Shown piece after piece: positions 50,497 to 55,963 of a DNA stretch of 64,000 bases. The number at the start of each line of letters is the position of its first letter. Positions within the stretch are counted from its first letter, which is position 1. The notes under the pieces are model-generated. The model worked only from the letters and a program-made list of their open reading frames with translations. It ran no database searches and had not been told where the DNA came from. The translations under genes were made by a program, and so were the position numbers. The stretch comes from Brevundimonas pondensis (lineage in GTDB: Bacteria > Pseudomonadota > Alphaproteobacteria > Caulobacterales > Caulobacteraceae), in assembly GCF_017487345.1 (NCBI RefSeq), contig NZ_CP062006.1, forward strand, positions 248,001 to 312,000, written 5' to 3'.

Positions 50497-50959
50497 CTGG
50501 AAACTCCCCTCCAGACTGCCGGCGCCGGTTGGCGTCAAACACATGACAATGGGTCAGGGCCCCCCAGCGGGGCGATCACCGACTGCGCAACGCGTTCAAG
50601 GGCGCGAAGATGCATCAGCTGCTTCGCTTTGTACTTTTTGTGTCGATGAGTGAGAGCAAATCTGGTGATTATTGCGCCAGTCGTGGTGGCGATTATTGTT
50701 TTTTATGGCTCACGTTTACGTTATTGTGGCCAAAAATGGATGTTTTAAATCTCTAATTGATAACTCAATTCATTCAATTTTGAAGATTTCAAAGTCAATG
50801 AAAAGATCAAATGTTAAATTGAGACCGATTACCGTCTGAATTTTGGCGATTTTCCGCGCGCTTTTAGGTCGAAAGCTGACGGGAACATGTCGGCCTCGCT
50901 CTGATTGGAGGGTGCGGAGGCCGAGGGGCCTTCCTTAAATCAGCTTCGGAGGGTTCATC
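50497..50959. promoter_or_regulatory. 463-base regulatory gap with AT-rich block
   Basis: No gene supported. Bases about 50,640-50,830 are very AT-rich for this genome (TTTAAATCTCTAATTGATAA, AATTCATTCAATTTTG) and sit between the divergent GT2 synthase and the amyloid-like operon. This is a likely control region for both matrix modules. GGAGG lies before the GTG at 50,960. Confidence 0.55.
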
Positions 50960-51703
50960 GTGACCACTAAACTCATGACTTCGGCTTTTGCGCTGTCAGC
51001 AGCTCTGGCGTTCGGCGCTCTGCCGGCCACCGCCGCCCTGGCGGGTCCGGAAGTGAACAGTTCGACTGTTCAGAATTCCAATCTCCAGGACAATTCCACC
51101 GATGTGGACGTGGGGCTTGCGGATTCGCTGAACAACAATTCGACCAACGACTCCAACAACGACAATTCGACCGACCTTGATGTGGGCGTGTCGGATTCGT
51201 TCAATGACAGCTCGAATTCGAACAATGACAACTCCGCGGACCTCGATGTCGGCGTGACGGACTCGTTCAACGACAACTCGCAGGCGGACTCGAACAACGA
51301 CAACTCGACCAACCTGTCGGTGGCGGATTCGTTCAACGACAACTCCCAGACCGATTCGAACAACGACAACTCGACCAATCTGGATGTCGCCGTGGCGGAT
51401 TCGTTCAACGACAACTCGATGAATGATTCGAACAACGATAATTCTGATCACTCGACGACCAATATTCGGGTCGCCCTGTCGCTTCAGGACCTGAACGCCA
51501 GCGTCAGCGGCTTCAGCTTCAACGTCGGCGGCGAGGACGACGGCGGATCGCTGGACACCGGTGATATCAGCAACTCCGGCGGCGCCTTCGCCGGCTTCGC
51601 GGGTATCCAGACCGTGACCTACAACACGGGCTTCGCATCCAATAATCAGGCTGCGACGGCGATCAGCGCCAACGCCAACGTCACCTTCGGCAACGGCGGC
51701 TGA
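50960..51703 (+). CDS. Secreted Asn/Asp/Ser repeat protein, candidate amyloid subunit
   Basis: The 247-residue precursor starts at GTG with GGAGG eight bases before. The signal peptide spans residues 1-28 (ending ALA). Residues 44-159 are five tandem repeats of 24, 22, 24, 22 and 24 residues with consensus DNST-LDV-VADSFNDNS--DSNN. A Gly-rich region and a C-terminal module follow: GGAFAGFAGIQTVTY, then NTGFASNNQAATAISANANV. There is no Cys, no transmembrane anchor and very low complexity. This is the profile of Fap/curli-like fibre subunits (FapB/FapC role). The protein is acidic and Asn-rich, unlike Ca-binding RTX repeats. Role inferred from composition and neighbours. Confidence 0.75.
   Translation: MTTKLMTSAFALSAALAFGALPATAALAGPEVNSSTVQNSNLQDNSTDVDVGLADSLNNNSTNDSNNDNSTDLDVGVSDSFNDSSNSNNDNSADLDVGVTDSFNDNSQADSNNDNSTNLSVADSFNDNSQTDSNNDNSTNLDVAVADSFNDNSMNDSNNDNSDHSTTNIRVALSLQDLNASVSGFSFNVGGEDDGGSLDTGDISNSGGAFAGFAGIQTVTYNTGFASNNQAATAISANANVTFGNGG
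51089..51436 (+). repeat. Five coding tandem repeats (66 or 72 bases)
   Basis: Unit lengths in order are 72, 66, 72, 66 and 72 bases (residues 44-159 of the secreted repeat protein). Sequence such as TTCAACGACAACTC recurs almost unchanged. Length alternates because units 2 and 4 each lack two codons, at different places. Confidence 0.9.
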
Positions 51704-51714
51704 AAGCAACAATG

Positions 51715-51752
51715 AACCGGCCAGGCGGATCGTCTGGCCGGTTTTCTTTTTC
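51715..51752 (+). terminator. Terminator/attenuator inside the amyloid-like operon
   Basis: Perfect 10-base stem AACCGGCCAG / CTGGCCGGTT with a nine-base loop, then TTCTTTTT, 12 bases after the repeat-protein stop and before the next gene's GAGGAGGG. Partial read-through would give more fibre subunit than export machinery. Confidence 0.9.
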
Positions 51753-51772
51753 GCTTTCGAGGAGGGTGACCC

Positions 51773-52204
51773 ATGTTTCGCATTCTGAGCGGCGTCTTGC
51801 CGGGTGCGCTGGTCTTCATGATCGCCGCCGGGGCCGCAGCCCAGGTCGTTCCGCAGATCGAGGCTCCCGATCCGGTTCTGCCGGCGCCTGTCTTGCCAGA
51901 CGCAGTCTCGACGGCTGTGGCGTCTCCAGCGTCGGCGGTGTCGGCCTCTCAGGCCTTGAGCCTTGAGGAGCTGCAGGAAGAAAGCGGTCGGCAGGGCATT
52001 CAGATCTACGCCGGCGCCAACCAGAACCTGTCGGCGGTCAACTCGGGCAACAGCATTCACGCCGATCAGGTCGGCTCGGGCAATATCACGCTCAGCGAGG
52101 GGGCGTTCGCGGGCTTCTCCGGCATCGGCAATTTTGTCGTCAACAGCGGCCACAACAATAATCTGCAAGGCTCGCTCAGCATCATTCTCGTGACGCCGCA
52201 ATGA
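51773..52204 (+). CDS. Small secreted protein, candidate minor fibre or nucleator component
   Basis: The 143-residue precursor has a signal peptide (1-24, ending AAAQ). A Pro/Ala/Val-rich linker follows (about 25-65). The C-terminal module (about 78-143) reads LSAVNSGNSIHADQVGSGNI, then GAFAGFSGIGNFVVNSGHNN and LQGSLSIILV. The GAFAGF-GI phrase and NSG-NN-Q spacing match the C-terminus of the large repeat protein upstream, so the two share a domain. That domain resembles the G-x-N...Q style repeats of Fap fibre proteins. Strong GAGGAGGG site. Its stop overlaps the peptidase start (ATGA). Confidence 0.7.
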   Translation: MFRILSGVLPGALVFMIAAGAAAQVVPQIEAPDPVLPAPVLPDAVSTAVASPASAVSASQALSLEELQEESGRQGIQIYAGANQNLSAVNSGNSIHADQVGSGNITLSEGAFAGFSGIGNFVVNSGHNNNLQGSLSIILVTPQ

Positions 52205-52914
52205 CTGGCCGTTTCCTTGGCGTCGGAGCGACGGTCCTGCTGGCGGTCGTCTGTGGCGCCCCGGCGGCGGCCCAGGTCAGCTTCAGCCAGGGCGGCGGCA
52301 CCTATTCGCTCCAGGTCGTCAGCTATCGCGACATCCCCTTTCGGACGGTGGTGCGCCAGGAATATGATTACAGCTGCGGCTCTGCCGCCCTAGCGACCTT
52401 GCTGCGCTATCACTACGGCCGTGACGTCGCCGAACACGAAGTCTTTCTCTCCATGTACGAGAACGGCGACCGTCAGGCGATCGAGAGGGTCGGTTTCTCC
52501 CTGCTGGACATGAAGCGCTATCTGGACAGCCACGGCTTCCAGGCCGACGGCTTTCGCATGACGCTGGCGGCGCTCGAGGAGGCGCACGCTCCGGCCATCG
52601 TCGTCATCAACCTGAATGGCTATCGGCATTTTGTGGTGGTGAAGGGGCTGGCCGCCGATCGTGTTCTGGTCGGGGACCCGGCCCTGGGGCTGAAAACCTA
52701 CAGTCGCGAGGAATTCGTCGGGATGTGGAACGGCATCGCCTTCCTGATCCGCGATTCCGCCGATCGCTTCAACGCCGTCGATGAGTGGCGGCCTTTCGCT
52801 AGGGCGCCGATGGATCGCGCCCTGCCCACGGATTCACTGGCCGAACTGACCCGGGAGCTGCCGCCGCTCTATCAGATCACAACGACCTTCTCGCTGGATC
52901 CCTACCTGCGGTGA
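52201..52914 (+). CDS. Sec-exported C39 family peptidase (FapD-like)
   Basis: The 237-residue precursor has a signal peptide (1-25, ending AAAQ). The C39 papain-like domain has QEYDYSCGSAALATLL (catalytic Cys59), GYRHFVVVKGL (His143) and VGDPALG (Asp159). Unlike bacteriocin exporters it has no membrane or ATPase domain, so it works in the periplasm, as FapD does in Fap amyloid systems. C39 enzymes usually cut after Gly-Gly. The next gene encodes a product with just such a motif. ATGA overlap upstream and TGATG overlap downstream show translational coupling. Confidence 0.87.
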   Translation: MTGRFLGVGATVLLAVVCGAPAAAQVSFSQGGGTYSLQVVSYRDIPFRTVVRQEYDYSCGSAALATLLRYHYGRDVAEHEVFLSMYENGDRQAIERVGFSLLDMKRYLDSHGFQADGFRMTLAALEEAHAPAIVVINLNGYRHFVVVKGLAADRVLVGDPALGLKTYSREEFVGMWNGIAFLIRDSADRFNAVDEWRPFARAPMDRALPTDSLAELTRELPPLYQITTTFSLDPYLR

Positions 52915-53651
52915 TGAAAATGTTCCGAGTTCGAGTTCTGTCCTGGGGAGTCTGCGCGGCGGCCTTGCTGGCGGCCCAGTCCGCCCTGGCGCAGGCCGCT
53001 TCTTCTCATACCGGCGCGACCGCCGAGCCGGAGTTCGCTCAGACAGGTCTGGCGGACTTCGGGTTTGAGGACGCTCTGGCGGCTGCGTCCGCGGCTTCGC
53101 CAGAGGCCGCGCGCCTTGCCTCCGTTGAGTTGTGGACGCCCGTACCCGACGGGGCCACGCCGCTCAGCGACGATGAGCTGGCCGATATGCGGGGGGGCTA
53201 TATGACGGCGGGCGGCGTGACCTTCGATTTCGGCGCCGTGGTCCGCACCTATGTCGGCGGGGCCCTGGCGATGGAAACGCGCCTGACCTGGACCCCGACC
53301 GGGCCTGTCACCGAACAGGTGAGTGGCGGTTTGCCGGGCTGGATTCCTCTTGCGGACGGGGGCGCCATCCAGGCGGGCGGGTTGAATCTGACGGGCCTGT
53401 CGCCGGGCTCGACGGGCATGATCCTGACCGACGCCGACGGCACGACCGCCCTGATTCACAATGTGCTCAACGGTCATCTGCAGAACATGGTGTTCAACGC
53501 CGCCGACAATCGCGACATTCGCCAAGACATGCAGCTGATGCTGACCCTGCCGAACTTCGAAGCAATGCAGCGCGATTACAGCATCGCGCGTCTGGGGTCC
53601 CAGATTTCCCAGGATATCGACTGGGGCAATATTATGGGATTTGCGCACTGA
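52914..53651 (+). CDS. Secreted protein with internal double-glycine leader motif, candidate C39 substrate
   Basis: The 245-residue precursor has a Sec signal (1-27, ending ALAQ). A 56-residue Ala-rich propeptide region follows, then PLSDDELADMRGG (83-95). That matches the double-glycine leader consensus (LS-x-x-EL-x-x-x-x-GG) used by C39 peptidases. After Gly95 the sequence is all-beta: YMTAGGVTFDFGAVVRTYVG, TRLTWTPTGPV, IHNVLNGHLQNMVFNAADN, and DIRQDMQLML. There is no transmembrane segment. It follows the peptidase gene directly. It may be a matured fibre cap, chaperone or FapE-like component. The motif is seen; the processing is inferred. Confidence 0.72.
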   Translation: MKMFRVRVLSWGVCAAALLAAQSALAQAASSHTGATAEPEFAQTGLADFGFEDALAAASAASPEAARLASVELWTPVPDGATPLSDDELADMRGGYMTAGGVTFDFGAVVRTYVGGALAMETRLTWTPTGPVTEQVSGGLPGWIPLADGGAIQAGGLNLTGLSPGSTGMILTDADGTTALIHNVLNGHLQNMVFNAADNRDIRQDMQLMLTLPNFEAMQRDYSIARLGSQISQDIDWGNIMGFAH

Positions 53652-53732
53652 AAGGAGCTCGGCGGAACGGATGAGCGCCGGCTTCGTTTTACCATTCGTT
53701 AAGGAAGCATTTGGGCCCGGGGAGGGGTGAGG

Positions 53733-54584
53733 ATGCAGATGGGCGTTCCCTACGCCGGCTATTCTGAAGCCGCGCGTCAATCCATACGCGCCGAGCGTCT
53801 GGCGCGCCCGCCTTTGCGGCGCCCTCAGCGCCCTCCCGCCGATGTCGCGGCCCTGAAGGTCCTGAGCGCCGTCGCCCCGTTGAGCGAGGACGAACGGGCC
53901 CTGGTCCGCAAGCTGTGTCTGTACCGTGAATCCATTCCCGCCGGCGCCGAGTTCGCGCGCGAGGGCGAGGCCGCTCCAGCTCGCCTGATCGTTAGCGGTT
54001 GGGCTTGCCGGCAGCAGTCCTTGCCTGACGGGCGGCGTCAGATTTTCGGTTTCCTGATGGCCGGCGACGCCATCGGTCTGGGGCTGCGGCCGCGTCCCCT
54101 GGACGAGGTCTCGACCGTGGCGGTCACGCGGGTCGAGTGTGTGGACGCCTTGATGCTGCGTGAGATTTTGGCGGTCCAGGACGGACGCCATGCCGGTTTG
54201 CGCAACGCCCTTGCCGCCGCGCGTCGCTATGAGGAGGCCTGCCTGCTGGACCATGTGGTTCGTCTGGGGCGGCAGTCGGCGCATGAGCGTACGGCGCATT
54301 TCCTGCTGGAGTGGCGCCAGCGATGCCGTGTCGCCGGTCTGGCGGATGCCGAGCGCTTTCCCATGCCCCTGACGCAGGAAGTGCTGTCCGACGCCCTGGG
54401 CCTGAGCATCGTTCACCTGAACCGGACGCTCCAGCACATGAAGCGTGAGCGTCTGATCGAAATGAAACGAGGCTGGGTCGAGATTCTCGACGCCTACAGG
54501 CTGAAGTTCATCTGTGACTACCAATCGCGCTGGCCGACGGTCGGCGGCGATGGTTCATCGGTGTCATTGGTCCGGGAGTTCTAG
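53733..54584 (+). CDS. Crp/Fnr-family transcription regulator
   Basis: A 283-residue product. An unusual basic N-terminal extension (about 1-40, with ARPPLRRPQRPP) is followed by a cyclic-nucleotide-binding fold (about 45-150: GAEFAREGEAAPARLIVSGW, GRRQIFGFLMAGDAIG). The C-terminal Crp-type winged helix carries LTQEVLSDALGLSIVHLNRTLQHM (about 220-243). The Fnr iron-sulfur Cys cluster is absent and the cAMP phosphate-binding motif is not clear, so the ligand is unknown. ATG 53,733 has GGAGGGGTGAGG upstream. Placed between amyloid-like genes, it likely controls them. Confidence 0.85.
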   Translation: MQMGVPYAGYSEAARQSIRAERLARPPLRRPQRPPADVAALKVLSAVAPLSEDERALVRKLCLYRESIPAGAEFAREGEAAPARLIVSGWACRQQSLPDGRRQIFGFLMAGDAIGLGLRPRPLDEVSTVAVTRVECVDALMLREILAVQDGRHAGLRNALAAARRYEEACLLDHVVRLGRQSAHERTAHFLLEWRQRCRVAGLADAERFPMPLTQEVLSDALGLSIVHLNRTLQHMKRERLIEMKRGWVEILDAYRLKFICDYQSRWPTVGGDGSSVSLVREF

Positions 54585-54655
54585 TTCACCATCAAATGGC
54601 AATGCGCGTGGTCGCGCGGCGTGATTGGCTGACGAATATTGAATGGGAGGCTGAC

Positions 54656-55963
54656 GTGTATTTTCGTAAGGCCGTTCATCTTCTGGGGGTGTCGTCGCTC
54701 GCCATCGTCATGGTCTGCGCCTCGGAGGGCGCGGCGCGCGCCCAGGAGGAAGACCCCTCTGCTCGCCTGGCCCGGCTCGAAGCTCTAGTGGCCGAACAGA
54801 GCCGGCGTCTGAGTGAACAGGAAGCCATGCTGGCGCGTCAGGCTGAACTCCTGGAGGCGCAATCCCGACGCATCGACGAGCGCTGGCGCGTCGATAACCG
54901 CTATAGTGAAGTCGCGTCTGTTCCACCGGGGGCTACCTTGCTGGGGCCGGCGGGCCTGGAAGCATGGCGCGCGGGTCAGGATACGACGGGTCAGAATCCG
55001 GATGGACGCTCGCCGATTCAGCCGCCGCCGCCGCCCTCGTTGAACGAGCGGCGCCTGCAACTTGCCGCTGTGCCTGAAGAGGTCGCGGTGTTGAGCCCGA
55101 AAGGCCGGCTCACCTTCGACGTTTCGGCGGAATACACGCGTTCCTCGGCCAATCGCCTGGTGTTCCGCGGCGTCGAGATCGTGCCCGGCTTGCAGATCGG
55201 GGTCATCGAAGCCAGCGAGGCGGACCGCGACACCTTCGGCGCCACGATTGCAGGGCGTTACGGCATAACCGATCGCATCGAGGTGGATGCGCGCATTCCC
55301 TATCTGAAGCGCAATGACACCATCACCACCGTCCAGCAGCGCGACGAGGCCGTGACCCGGACCATCGACCTCAAGGGCGACGGCATCGGCGATGTCGAGG
55401 CGGGCATCCGCTATCAGATCAACGGGGGCGAAAAGGGACGTCCTGTGTTCGTCGCTGGCCTGCGCGTGAAGAGCGACACCGGCGAAGGGCCGTTCGATAT
55501 CCCGCGTGATGAGTTCGGCGTGGCCAGCCGTCTGGCGACCGGTTCGGGCTTCTGGGGGATCGAGCCCAGTCTCAGCATGCTGTTCCCCAGTGATCCGGCA
55601 GTCATCTTCGCCAACATCAGTTACTTCGCCCACCTGCCCAGGGATATCGACAAGAGGGAAGGCGACATTCTGATCGGACGGGTCGATCCCGGCGATTCCA
55701 TCGGCCTGGGCATAGGCTTCGCTTTCGCGCTCAATCAGCGCTTCTCCTATTCATTGGGCTACAAGCACAACTACATTCGCCCGACGAGCACGGAGTTGAA
55801 CAACATCACCGAGAAGTCTGACGATCTTCAGATCGGCGCCCTGACCTTCGGCATGTCCTATCGCATTACGGACAGGTTCTCCCTGAACGGTAATTTCGAA
55901 TTCGGCGTGACCGAGGACGCCCCCGATATGCGTTTCGTGCTGCGCGTGCCGGTGGTCTTCTAG
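54656..55963 (+). CDS. FapF-like outer-membrane protein: coiled coil plus beta-barrel
   Basis: The 435-residue precursor starts at GTG with GGGAGG five bases upstream. It has a signal peptide (1-30, ending ARAQ). A coiled coil spans about 35-78 (ARLEALVAEQSRRLSEQEAM, then RQAELLEAQSRRID). A Pro-rich linker (PPPPP at 123-127) follows, then a beta-barrel (about 150-435) with regular alternating strands, ending RVPVVF with a C-terminal Phe. This is the layout of FapF, the trimeric outer-membrane channel that secretes Fap amyloid subunits. An upstream ATG at 54,599 would spoil the signal peptide. Confidence 0.78.
   Translation: MYFRKAVHLLGVSSLAIVMVCASEGAARAQEEDPSARLARLEALVAEQSRRLSEQEAMLARQAELLEAQSRRIDERWRVDNRYSEVASVPPGATLLGPAGLEAWRAGQDTTGQNPDGRSPIQPPPPPSLNERRLQLAAVPEEVAVLSPKGRLTFDVSAEYTRSSANRLVFRGVEIVPGLQIGVIEASEADRDTFGATIAGRYGITDRIEVDARIPYLKRNDTITTVQQRDEAVTRTIDLKGDGIGDVEAGIRYQINGGEKGRPVFVAGLRVKSDTGEGPFDIPRDEFGVASRLATGSGFWGIEPSLSMLFPSDPAVIFANISYFAHLPRDIDKREGDILIGRVDPGDSIGLGIGFAFALNQRFSYSLGYKHNYIRPTSTELNNITEKSDDLQIGALTFGMSYRITDRFSLNGNFEFGVTEDAPDMRFVLRVPVVF

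Follow-up and report, generated by a model that had tools for sequence, protein, structure and literature searches.

A Fap-like export locus of Brevundimonas pondensis with a predicted double-glycine leader on the protein at the FapE position

We analysed a 64,000-nucleotide stretch of the Brevundimonas pondensis genome (NCBI RefSeq assembly GCF_017487345.1, contig NZ_CP062006.1, positions 248,001 to 312,000 of the forward strand; hereafter the window), in which a preliminary description had proposed that six consecutive plus-strand genes have the parts of the fap operon of Pseudomonas. All six open reading frames (ORFs) lie where that description had put them, at 50960-55963, and sequence comparisons argue firmly for a Fap-like machine at this locus, which is not a canonical fap operon. 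Its features are the following, in positions of the window.

50960..51703, plus strand: ORF1 (S1), presumed major secreted subunit, with repeats rich in Asn, Ser and Asp and a conserved C-terminal motif, and with no double-glycine leader.
51773..52204, plus strand: ORF2 (S2), presumed minor subunit, with a C-terminal motif in common with ORF1.
52201..52914, plus strand: ORF3 (D), Sec-exported C39 peptidase, FapD-like, with Q53, C59, H143 and D159.
52911..53651, plus strand: ORF4 (E), secreted protein at the FapE position, likely start ATG 52914.
53727..54584, plus strand: ORF5 (R), Crp/Fnr-family regulator.
54596..55963, plus strand: ORF6 (F), outer-membrane exporter resembling FapF, with GTG 54656 as the likely start.
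53163..53198, plus strand: predicted double-glycine leader of ORF4, LSDDELADMRGG, with a predicted cut after Gly96; it fits the ComA consensus quoted in PMC6363468.
51956..51991, plus strand: predicted C39-type leader of ORF2, LSLEELQEESGR, in which Gly72 (position -2) is invariant among 18 aligned homologues.
51714..51744, plus strand: GC-rich hairpin of 14 bp with a T-rich tail, directly 3' of the ORF1 stop.
50755..50793, no strand: tandem palindromes AATTGATAACTCAATT and TTTGAAGATTTCAAA, which lie 5' of ORF1 and may be bound by a regulator.

The start of ORF4 is probably at ATG 52914, because this protein is entered in the database with 245 amino acids, and that of ORF6 probably at GTG 54656, because likeness to the corresponding protein of locus L030 begins there. 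Signal peptides were judged by eye, without a signal-peptide program; those claimed in the preliminary description were recognized in this way, and the ORF1 repeats, the C39 residues, the coiled-coil-like stretch and the barrel that it listed were likewise seen. No Pfam or NCBIfam family scored above its cut-off for ORF1, ORF2 or ORF4. The genome, a single contig of 3.55 Mb, yielded one barrel gene.

ORF3 belongs to the C39 family both by its score against Pfam Peptidase_C39 (84 bits, cut-off 22) and by its catalytic residues, which are intact, with Q53, C59, H143 and D159 aligning with the C39 double-glycine protease 6mpz. Its best NCBIfam match was FapD (NF058616; 159.4 bits, E 7.8e-47, below the cut-off of 330), followed by FilB (128.7 bits, E 3e-37, below the cut-off of 475). 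The best match of ORF6 was FapF (NF058560; 148.6 bits, E 2.3e-43, below the cut-off of 700), followed by FilC (77.3 bits, E 1e-21, below the cut-off of 630). The C-terminal barrel of ORF6 (residues 162-455) matched the solved FapF structure with E 1.9e-34, its N-terminus is coiled-coil-like, and in place of the two PTG motifs of FapF, reported as not essential (PMC5557850), it has DTG and ATG. By these comparisons ORF3 and ORF6 are clear homologues of FapD and FapF that lie outside the equivalog range of the Fap and Fil families, in agreement with the roles that had been assigned to them. The Fap gene set as a whole, also claimed at that stage, stood in part: FapD, FapF and, through family relatives, the FapE N-terminus were recovered, but the scores are far below the cut-offs and no three-repeat FapB or FapC is present.

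After its signal peptide ORF4 reads LSDDELADMRGG, followed by a predicted cut and YMTAGG. The leader has Leu-12, Glu-8, Leu-7, Met-4, Gly-2 and Gly-1, and is thus an exact match to the double-glycine pattern (Leu-12, X3, Glu-8, Leu-7 and Gly-Gly). The C39 consensus is given as Leu(-12)-X3-Glu(-8)-Leu(-7) before Gly-Gly/Ala/Ser, and a groove accommodates leader residues -4, -7 and -12 (PMC6363468). R94, G95, G96 and G177 are the sole invariant columns in an alignment of 35 homologues. Among database homologues, 37 of 38 have RGG beyond residue 15, and the remaining one, which starts late, also has RGG; in those 37, position -7 is Leu (36) or Met (1), and position -8 is Glu (29) or Asp (8). A structure model built from 35 sequences (predicted local distance difference test (pLDDT) 76, predicted template-modelling score (pTM) 0.51) shows one helix in the signal peptide (8-30) and another in the leader (87-93). 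Confidence is low for the loop 95-98 and high for the domain that extends from about 106 to 245, which is rich in beta structure and has a long C-terminal helix; the predicted cut falls near the domain edge. Double-glycine processing of ORF4 by ORF3 is likely.

The same leader was found in canonical FapE, where it ends in RGR or RGK. Six of the eight loci over the FapD cut-off were taken (L130-L135). NCBIfam identifies the ORF after D in L131 as FapE (351 bits, cut-off 250); its sequence is IELKDAEMAELRGR, a predicted cut and then YVMPG, with Leu-12, Glu-8, Met-7, Leu-4, Gly-2 and Arg-1. The leaders in the other five loci are LKDQELATLRGR (L130), LKDSEMAELRGR (L132), LKDQELAQLRGK (L133, L134) and VPEHELAEMRGR (L135). 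The ORF4 family and FapE align over the leader plus 28 residues with hhalign E 2e-11 (0/200 column shuffles as high), in windows anchored on the RG motif, a choice that favours the match. Independently of motif anchoring, the ORF4-like protein of L144 matched positions 1-52 of the FapE model with E 1.2e-4, and that of L093 matched positions 6-57 weakly (E 0.0023).

In PMC5557850 the FapD catalytic cysteine is needed for FapC secretion, complete N-terminal processing is seen for FapE alone, with about 70 first residues unseen, the target of FapD is called unclear and the Fap proteins are said to be without canonical C39 sequences; the candidate sites considered in that paper are GG and GA motifs of FapE and a cut within the linker of FapF. 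Elsewhere the FapD substrate is given as undetermined and fapD-fapF pairs are reported from five additional phyla (PMC6173800), and a 2025 review goes no further than naming FapE and FapF as presumed substrates of FapD (PMC12822426). Among the top-ranked openly licensed papers that our searches listed, we found no description of a FapD site at this leader or of the S1-S2-D-E kind of locus.

FapD-type genes were collected from the class (23/289 genomes) and the phylum (39/398 genomes; 8 over the FapD cut-off; 0/14 control genomes). The class sample took 19 of 26 places, leaving out the window's own place, G281, G409, G478, G533 and two of G506; the phylum sample took 36 regions representing 38 of 48 places, leaving out seven in G747, G839, G881, G805, G613, G687 and G661, while three further places (G000, G392, G490) were already in the sample. 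Together with the order, this gave 84 stretches, 69 with a usable D. A leader profile of 15 columns, made from 31 distinct leaders of ORF4 homologues, was scored in the operon neighbours of 65 loci outside the window's clade, with the 99th percentile of scores from controls and shuffles as the threshold. A match above threshold was present in 48 of the 65 loci, and 58/219 operon ORFs matched versus 5/367 distant ORFs of the same loci (Fisher 9e-22, related loci not being independent). The literal ComA pattern gave 13/230 versus 0/367. By eye, small secreted proteins with LSDAEMSETKGE or alike were seen in the Campylobacterota-type loci L223, L226 and L228, and none in L224, L225 and L227. As a side observation, a motif of like spacing that ends in GQ occurs close to the N-terminus of the FilA/DUF6160-type protein of L159 (family-tested) and, by motif only, of secreted ORFs of L160-L162 and L221. 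In the minimal sets L096-L099 a C39 gene and a FapF-like gene are accompanied by a single small protein that has a GG-type motif, which recalls the nap island of Neisseria.

ORF1 (247 amino acids) is 64% Asn, Ser and Asp over residues 31-170, where its repeat is imperfect (autocorrelation 0.41 at lag 22 and 0.38 at lag 24); its structure model was uninformative (pLDDT 39). The C-terminal families of ORF1 and ORF2 (143 amino acids) are homologous (hhalign E 3e-10), which bears out the earlier claim of a motif common to the two proteins. That motif weakly resembles one Fap repeat (hhalign E 0.004; 0/200 column shuffles reach the score), so the preliminary view that the subunits are quite unlike Fap repeats was nearly right. 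The three imperfect repeats of FapB/FapC are absent from ORF1 and ORF2, whose families end in this one weakly repeat-like motif; we conclude from their sequences that both are secreted subunits of a non-Fap kind. The leader of ORF2 reads LSLEELQEESGR, with QGIQI after the predicted cut. In its homologues the leader ends in SGG or AGG in genus g17 and some others and in SGR or SGW in the window's group; the GG/GA/GS pattern fits 16/39 homologues and a looser form 35/39, some of the matches lying elsewhere in the protein. None of the 40 database homologues of ORF1 fits the strict pattern and 20/40 fit the loose one, a sign of its permissiveness.

Within the order, the barrel was found in 29/249 genomes (E<=1e-5), the peptidase in 24/249 (E<=1e-10) and the ORF4 profile in 18/249. 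In G116 and G221 the peptidase match lay only inside frames of 826-872 amino acids, the size of an ATP-binding cassette (ABC) exporter; these were set aside, leaving 22 genomes with a free-standing C39 gene. The exporter is present in all 22, as against 29/249 overall, and 15 of the 18 genomes with the ORF4 profile are among them, the others being G132, G137 and G187. D lies in the same stretch as the barrel in 16 of the 28 other barrel loci, all of which were covered, and the full S1-S2-D-E set stands beside F in L030, L031 and L038. In genus g17, S1-S2-D-E occur apart from F in L209, L211 and L212 (the ORF4 call of L212 being cut-down), the stretch of L210 ended before S1 and S2, and in G117, G182, G222 and G231 the C39 and barrel genes are both present and unlinked. 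A barrel without C39 was found in G058, G107, G112, G132 (a 46-residue fragment), G137 (at a contig end), G228 and G233 (on a 4-kb contig). A search of named genomes with C39 only gave 14 loci, in Brevundimonas, Marinobacter, Halomonas, Oceanobacter, Haliea, Desulfonema, Desulfosarcina, Helicobacter and kin, and Arcobacter, and all 14 had a barrel-profile match within about 2.5 kb, some only at E 1e-5. The operon is present on a contig of Brevundimonas bullata HAMBI_262 (L216). The neighbourhood is conserved in relatives, with versions of the locus, linked or split, occurring in the order and in further Proteobacteria; lack of such conservation, which the preliminary description had named as evidence that would count against it, was looked for and not found.

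Some loci of the order depart from this arrangement. In L033-L037 a FapF-like gene (48-52% identical) has no C39 gene nearby; of these genomes, G117, G182 and G222 carry a C39 set elsewhere, and none was found in G107 and G112. The gene adjoins what we take to be genes for coenzyme A-transferase subunits. Remnants at L213 (G187) and L215 (G132), comprising an ORF4-like stretch with internal stops and an S1-like fragment that runs into a C39-like tail, suggest loss of the system in genus g17. In the wider sample, genome G606 combines a duplicated Fap-like set (L136, FapD 284 bits) with a set like that of the window at another place (L153).

The strong hairpin between ORF1 and ORF2 and the double-glycine leaders had no place in the preliminary description. 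The hairpin at 51714-51744 has a z score of -4.2 against mononucleotide shuffles. The gap after S1 was folded in nine other loci, and by the same shuffles it folds strongly in L030, L031, L038, L211, L212, L093, L165 and L144 (z -3.4 to -5.3); in L209, where the cut fell inside S1, z was -0.7. The hairpin sequences differ among the nine correctly cut loci, the window included, so it is the structure that seems to be kept. The palindromes AATTGATAACTCAATT and TTTGAAGATTTCAAA stand in an AT-rich stretch and may be regulator sites; no counterpart was found upstream of S1 in L030. The inserted Crp/Fnr regulator noted earlier was borne out (ORF5 against HTH_Crp_2, 57 bits, cut-off 27), and a Crp/Fnr-like gene lies directly upstream of F in all four linked sets (the window, L030, L031 and L038), with a weak match in L038 (33 bits). 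Six such domains were detected in the genome.

Taken together, the reading that we favour, and hold to be reasonably probable, is a Fap-like system for fibre export in which ORF3 would cut the ORF4 leader and the subunits would leave through ORF6. From their signal peptides, ORF1, ORF2 and ORF4 would cross the inner membrane by Sec. Periplasmic ORF3 would bind the helical ORF4 leader (LSDDELADM) and cut after RGG, freeing the folded beta-rich domain; it would probably also cut ORF2 at its looser leader, while ORF1, the abundant repeat subunit, would remain uncut for want of a leader. More generally, we propose that FapD-type enzymes would cut Sec-exported proteins at such a leader before or during FapF export. 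The subunits would exit through a trimeric FapF-like channel formed by ORF6, its pore gated by the coiled coil and a plug as in FapF. The surface fibre would consist chiefly of ORF1, with ORF2 nucleating or capping it and ORF4 initiating or anchoring it. The hairpin 3' of ORF1 would keep the ORF1 message in excess, and ORF5 would link expression to a Crp/Fnr signal. It is plausible that the product is an amyloid. We give about an even chance to a more general route made up of Sec export, periplasmic cutting of a double-glycine-type leader and FapF-type exit, whose branches would be Fap (GR/GK), Fil (GQ), perhaps a Helicobacter-type (GE) and the fibre described here, with non-Fap subunits and a GG that looks ancestral. 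On this view FapD would recognize its substrates at the leader, which might also act as the signal that opens the channel.

Several points weigh against the favoured reading. Apart from the anchoring of the leader comparison, the ORF4 family matches FapE only marginally once the leader is left out (E 0.002 over 15 columns, slightly above the best of 200 shuffles), there is no alignment beyond about 28 residues, so that mature ORF4 is not detectably FapE, ORF4 of the window has no match to the FapE model NF058559 (cut-off 250 bits) at E<=1, and a fold search with ORF4 gave no match. In ORF2 of the window, leader positions -1 and -4 are occupied by Arg and Glu. No operon ORF exceeded the leader threshold in 17 of the 65 loci, although a looser motif is visible in several of them (L097-L099, L160-L162). 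The roughly 70 unseen residues of FapE exceed the cut after residue 40 predicted for the L131 protein, and the FapF linker has been proposed as a FapD target too (PMC5557850).

It could also be supposed that the locus is a strongly diverged canonical Fap operon, with ORF1 as FapC, ORF2 as FapB, ORF3-4 as FapD-E, ORF6 as FapF and FapA lost, and the FapD, FapF and FapE N-terminal relations, the weak likeness of the ORF1/ORF2 C-terminus to one Fap repeat and the reported lack of fapA in 6/16 genera (PMC3792158) agree with it. We nevertheless judge this unlikely, given that three-repeat subunits, described as almost invariable (PMC12822426), are missing here, that the ORF2 family carries a leader whereas FapB is reported as unprocessed (PMC5557850), and that both kinds occur in one genome, G606. 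Alternatively, the leader might serve only as a docking tag, with ORF3 chaperoning ORF4 and ORF2, or cutting the ORF6 linker, and no leader being cut; in type I secretion, C39-like domains that lack catalytic activity serve as chaperones of the substrates, and the linker of FapF has been proposed to be cleaved (PMC5557850). Against this stand the intact catalytic residues of ORF3, the invariant Gly-Gly in the ORF4 alignment and the need for the FapD cysteine in Fap (PMC5557850), and we give it a small chance.

Export of effectors or peptides rather than a fibre, as by the nap island of Neisseria (C39, FapF-like protein and GG peptides), would account for small GG-motif proteins adjoining D and F in L096-L099 and has a precedent in GG peptides tied to a FapF homologue (PMC11798529). 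It seems quite improbable here, as ORF1 is a large repeat protein, ORF1 and ORF2 have a terminal motif in common, as expected of subunits of one polymer, and the Nap peptides, by the published account, are small and cationic (PMC11798529). A chance association of the C39 gene with the barrel gene we find scarcely credible. Their lack of adjacency in genus g17 would favour it, but both genes are still present there in G117, G182, G222 and G231, and chance linkage is contradicted by the 22/22 co-occurrence in the order and by the barrel match near C39 in 14/14 loci of the C39-only search.

The locus has in common with Fap (fapABCDEF of Pseudomonas) a periplasmic C39 peptidase, a barrel of the FapF type preceded by a coiled coil, subunits that carry signal peptides and a protein at the FapE position with the same leader in the same spacing. 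It differs in that its subunits are without the three Fap repeats, the leader at the FapE position ends in the canonical GG and not in GR/GK, the small subunit has a leader as well, a regulator is inserted, and F is divergent or unlinked in relatives. As for FapA, the locus has no spare ORF, and none of its six proteins had a FapA-named match in a library whose FapA content was unchecked. The putative Fil pilus (FilA/FilB/FilC, by NCBIfam names) shares related C39 (FilB) and barrel (FilC) proteins and the like-spaced motif, ending in GQ in the FilA/DUF6160 protein of L159; here, however, scores are far below the Fil cut-offs, and ORF1, ORF2 and ORF4 have no match to FilA in NCBIfam at E<=1. 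The nap island of Neisseria gonorrhoeae likewise has a C39 peptidase, a FapF-like channel and GG-motif substrates, but these are small cationic peptides tied to autolysis, and the description in PMC11798529, in the portion available, includes no large repeat subunit. Peptidase-containing ABC exporters (ComA, LahT) share the C39 family, the catalytic residues and the leader pattern; their peptidase domain is cytosolic and part of the transporter, whereas ORF3 is free-standing with a signal peptide.

Fap is known in Gamma-, Beta- and Deltaproteobacteria (PMC3792158), and surveys in which FapB/C repeats are a requirement, such as that of PMC12822426, would presumably overlook alphaproteobacterial export loci such as this one. 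The canonical site in the protein at the FapE position here, read back, points to the same site in canonical FapE, and would offer one exact residue as a candidate target of FapD.

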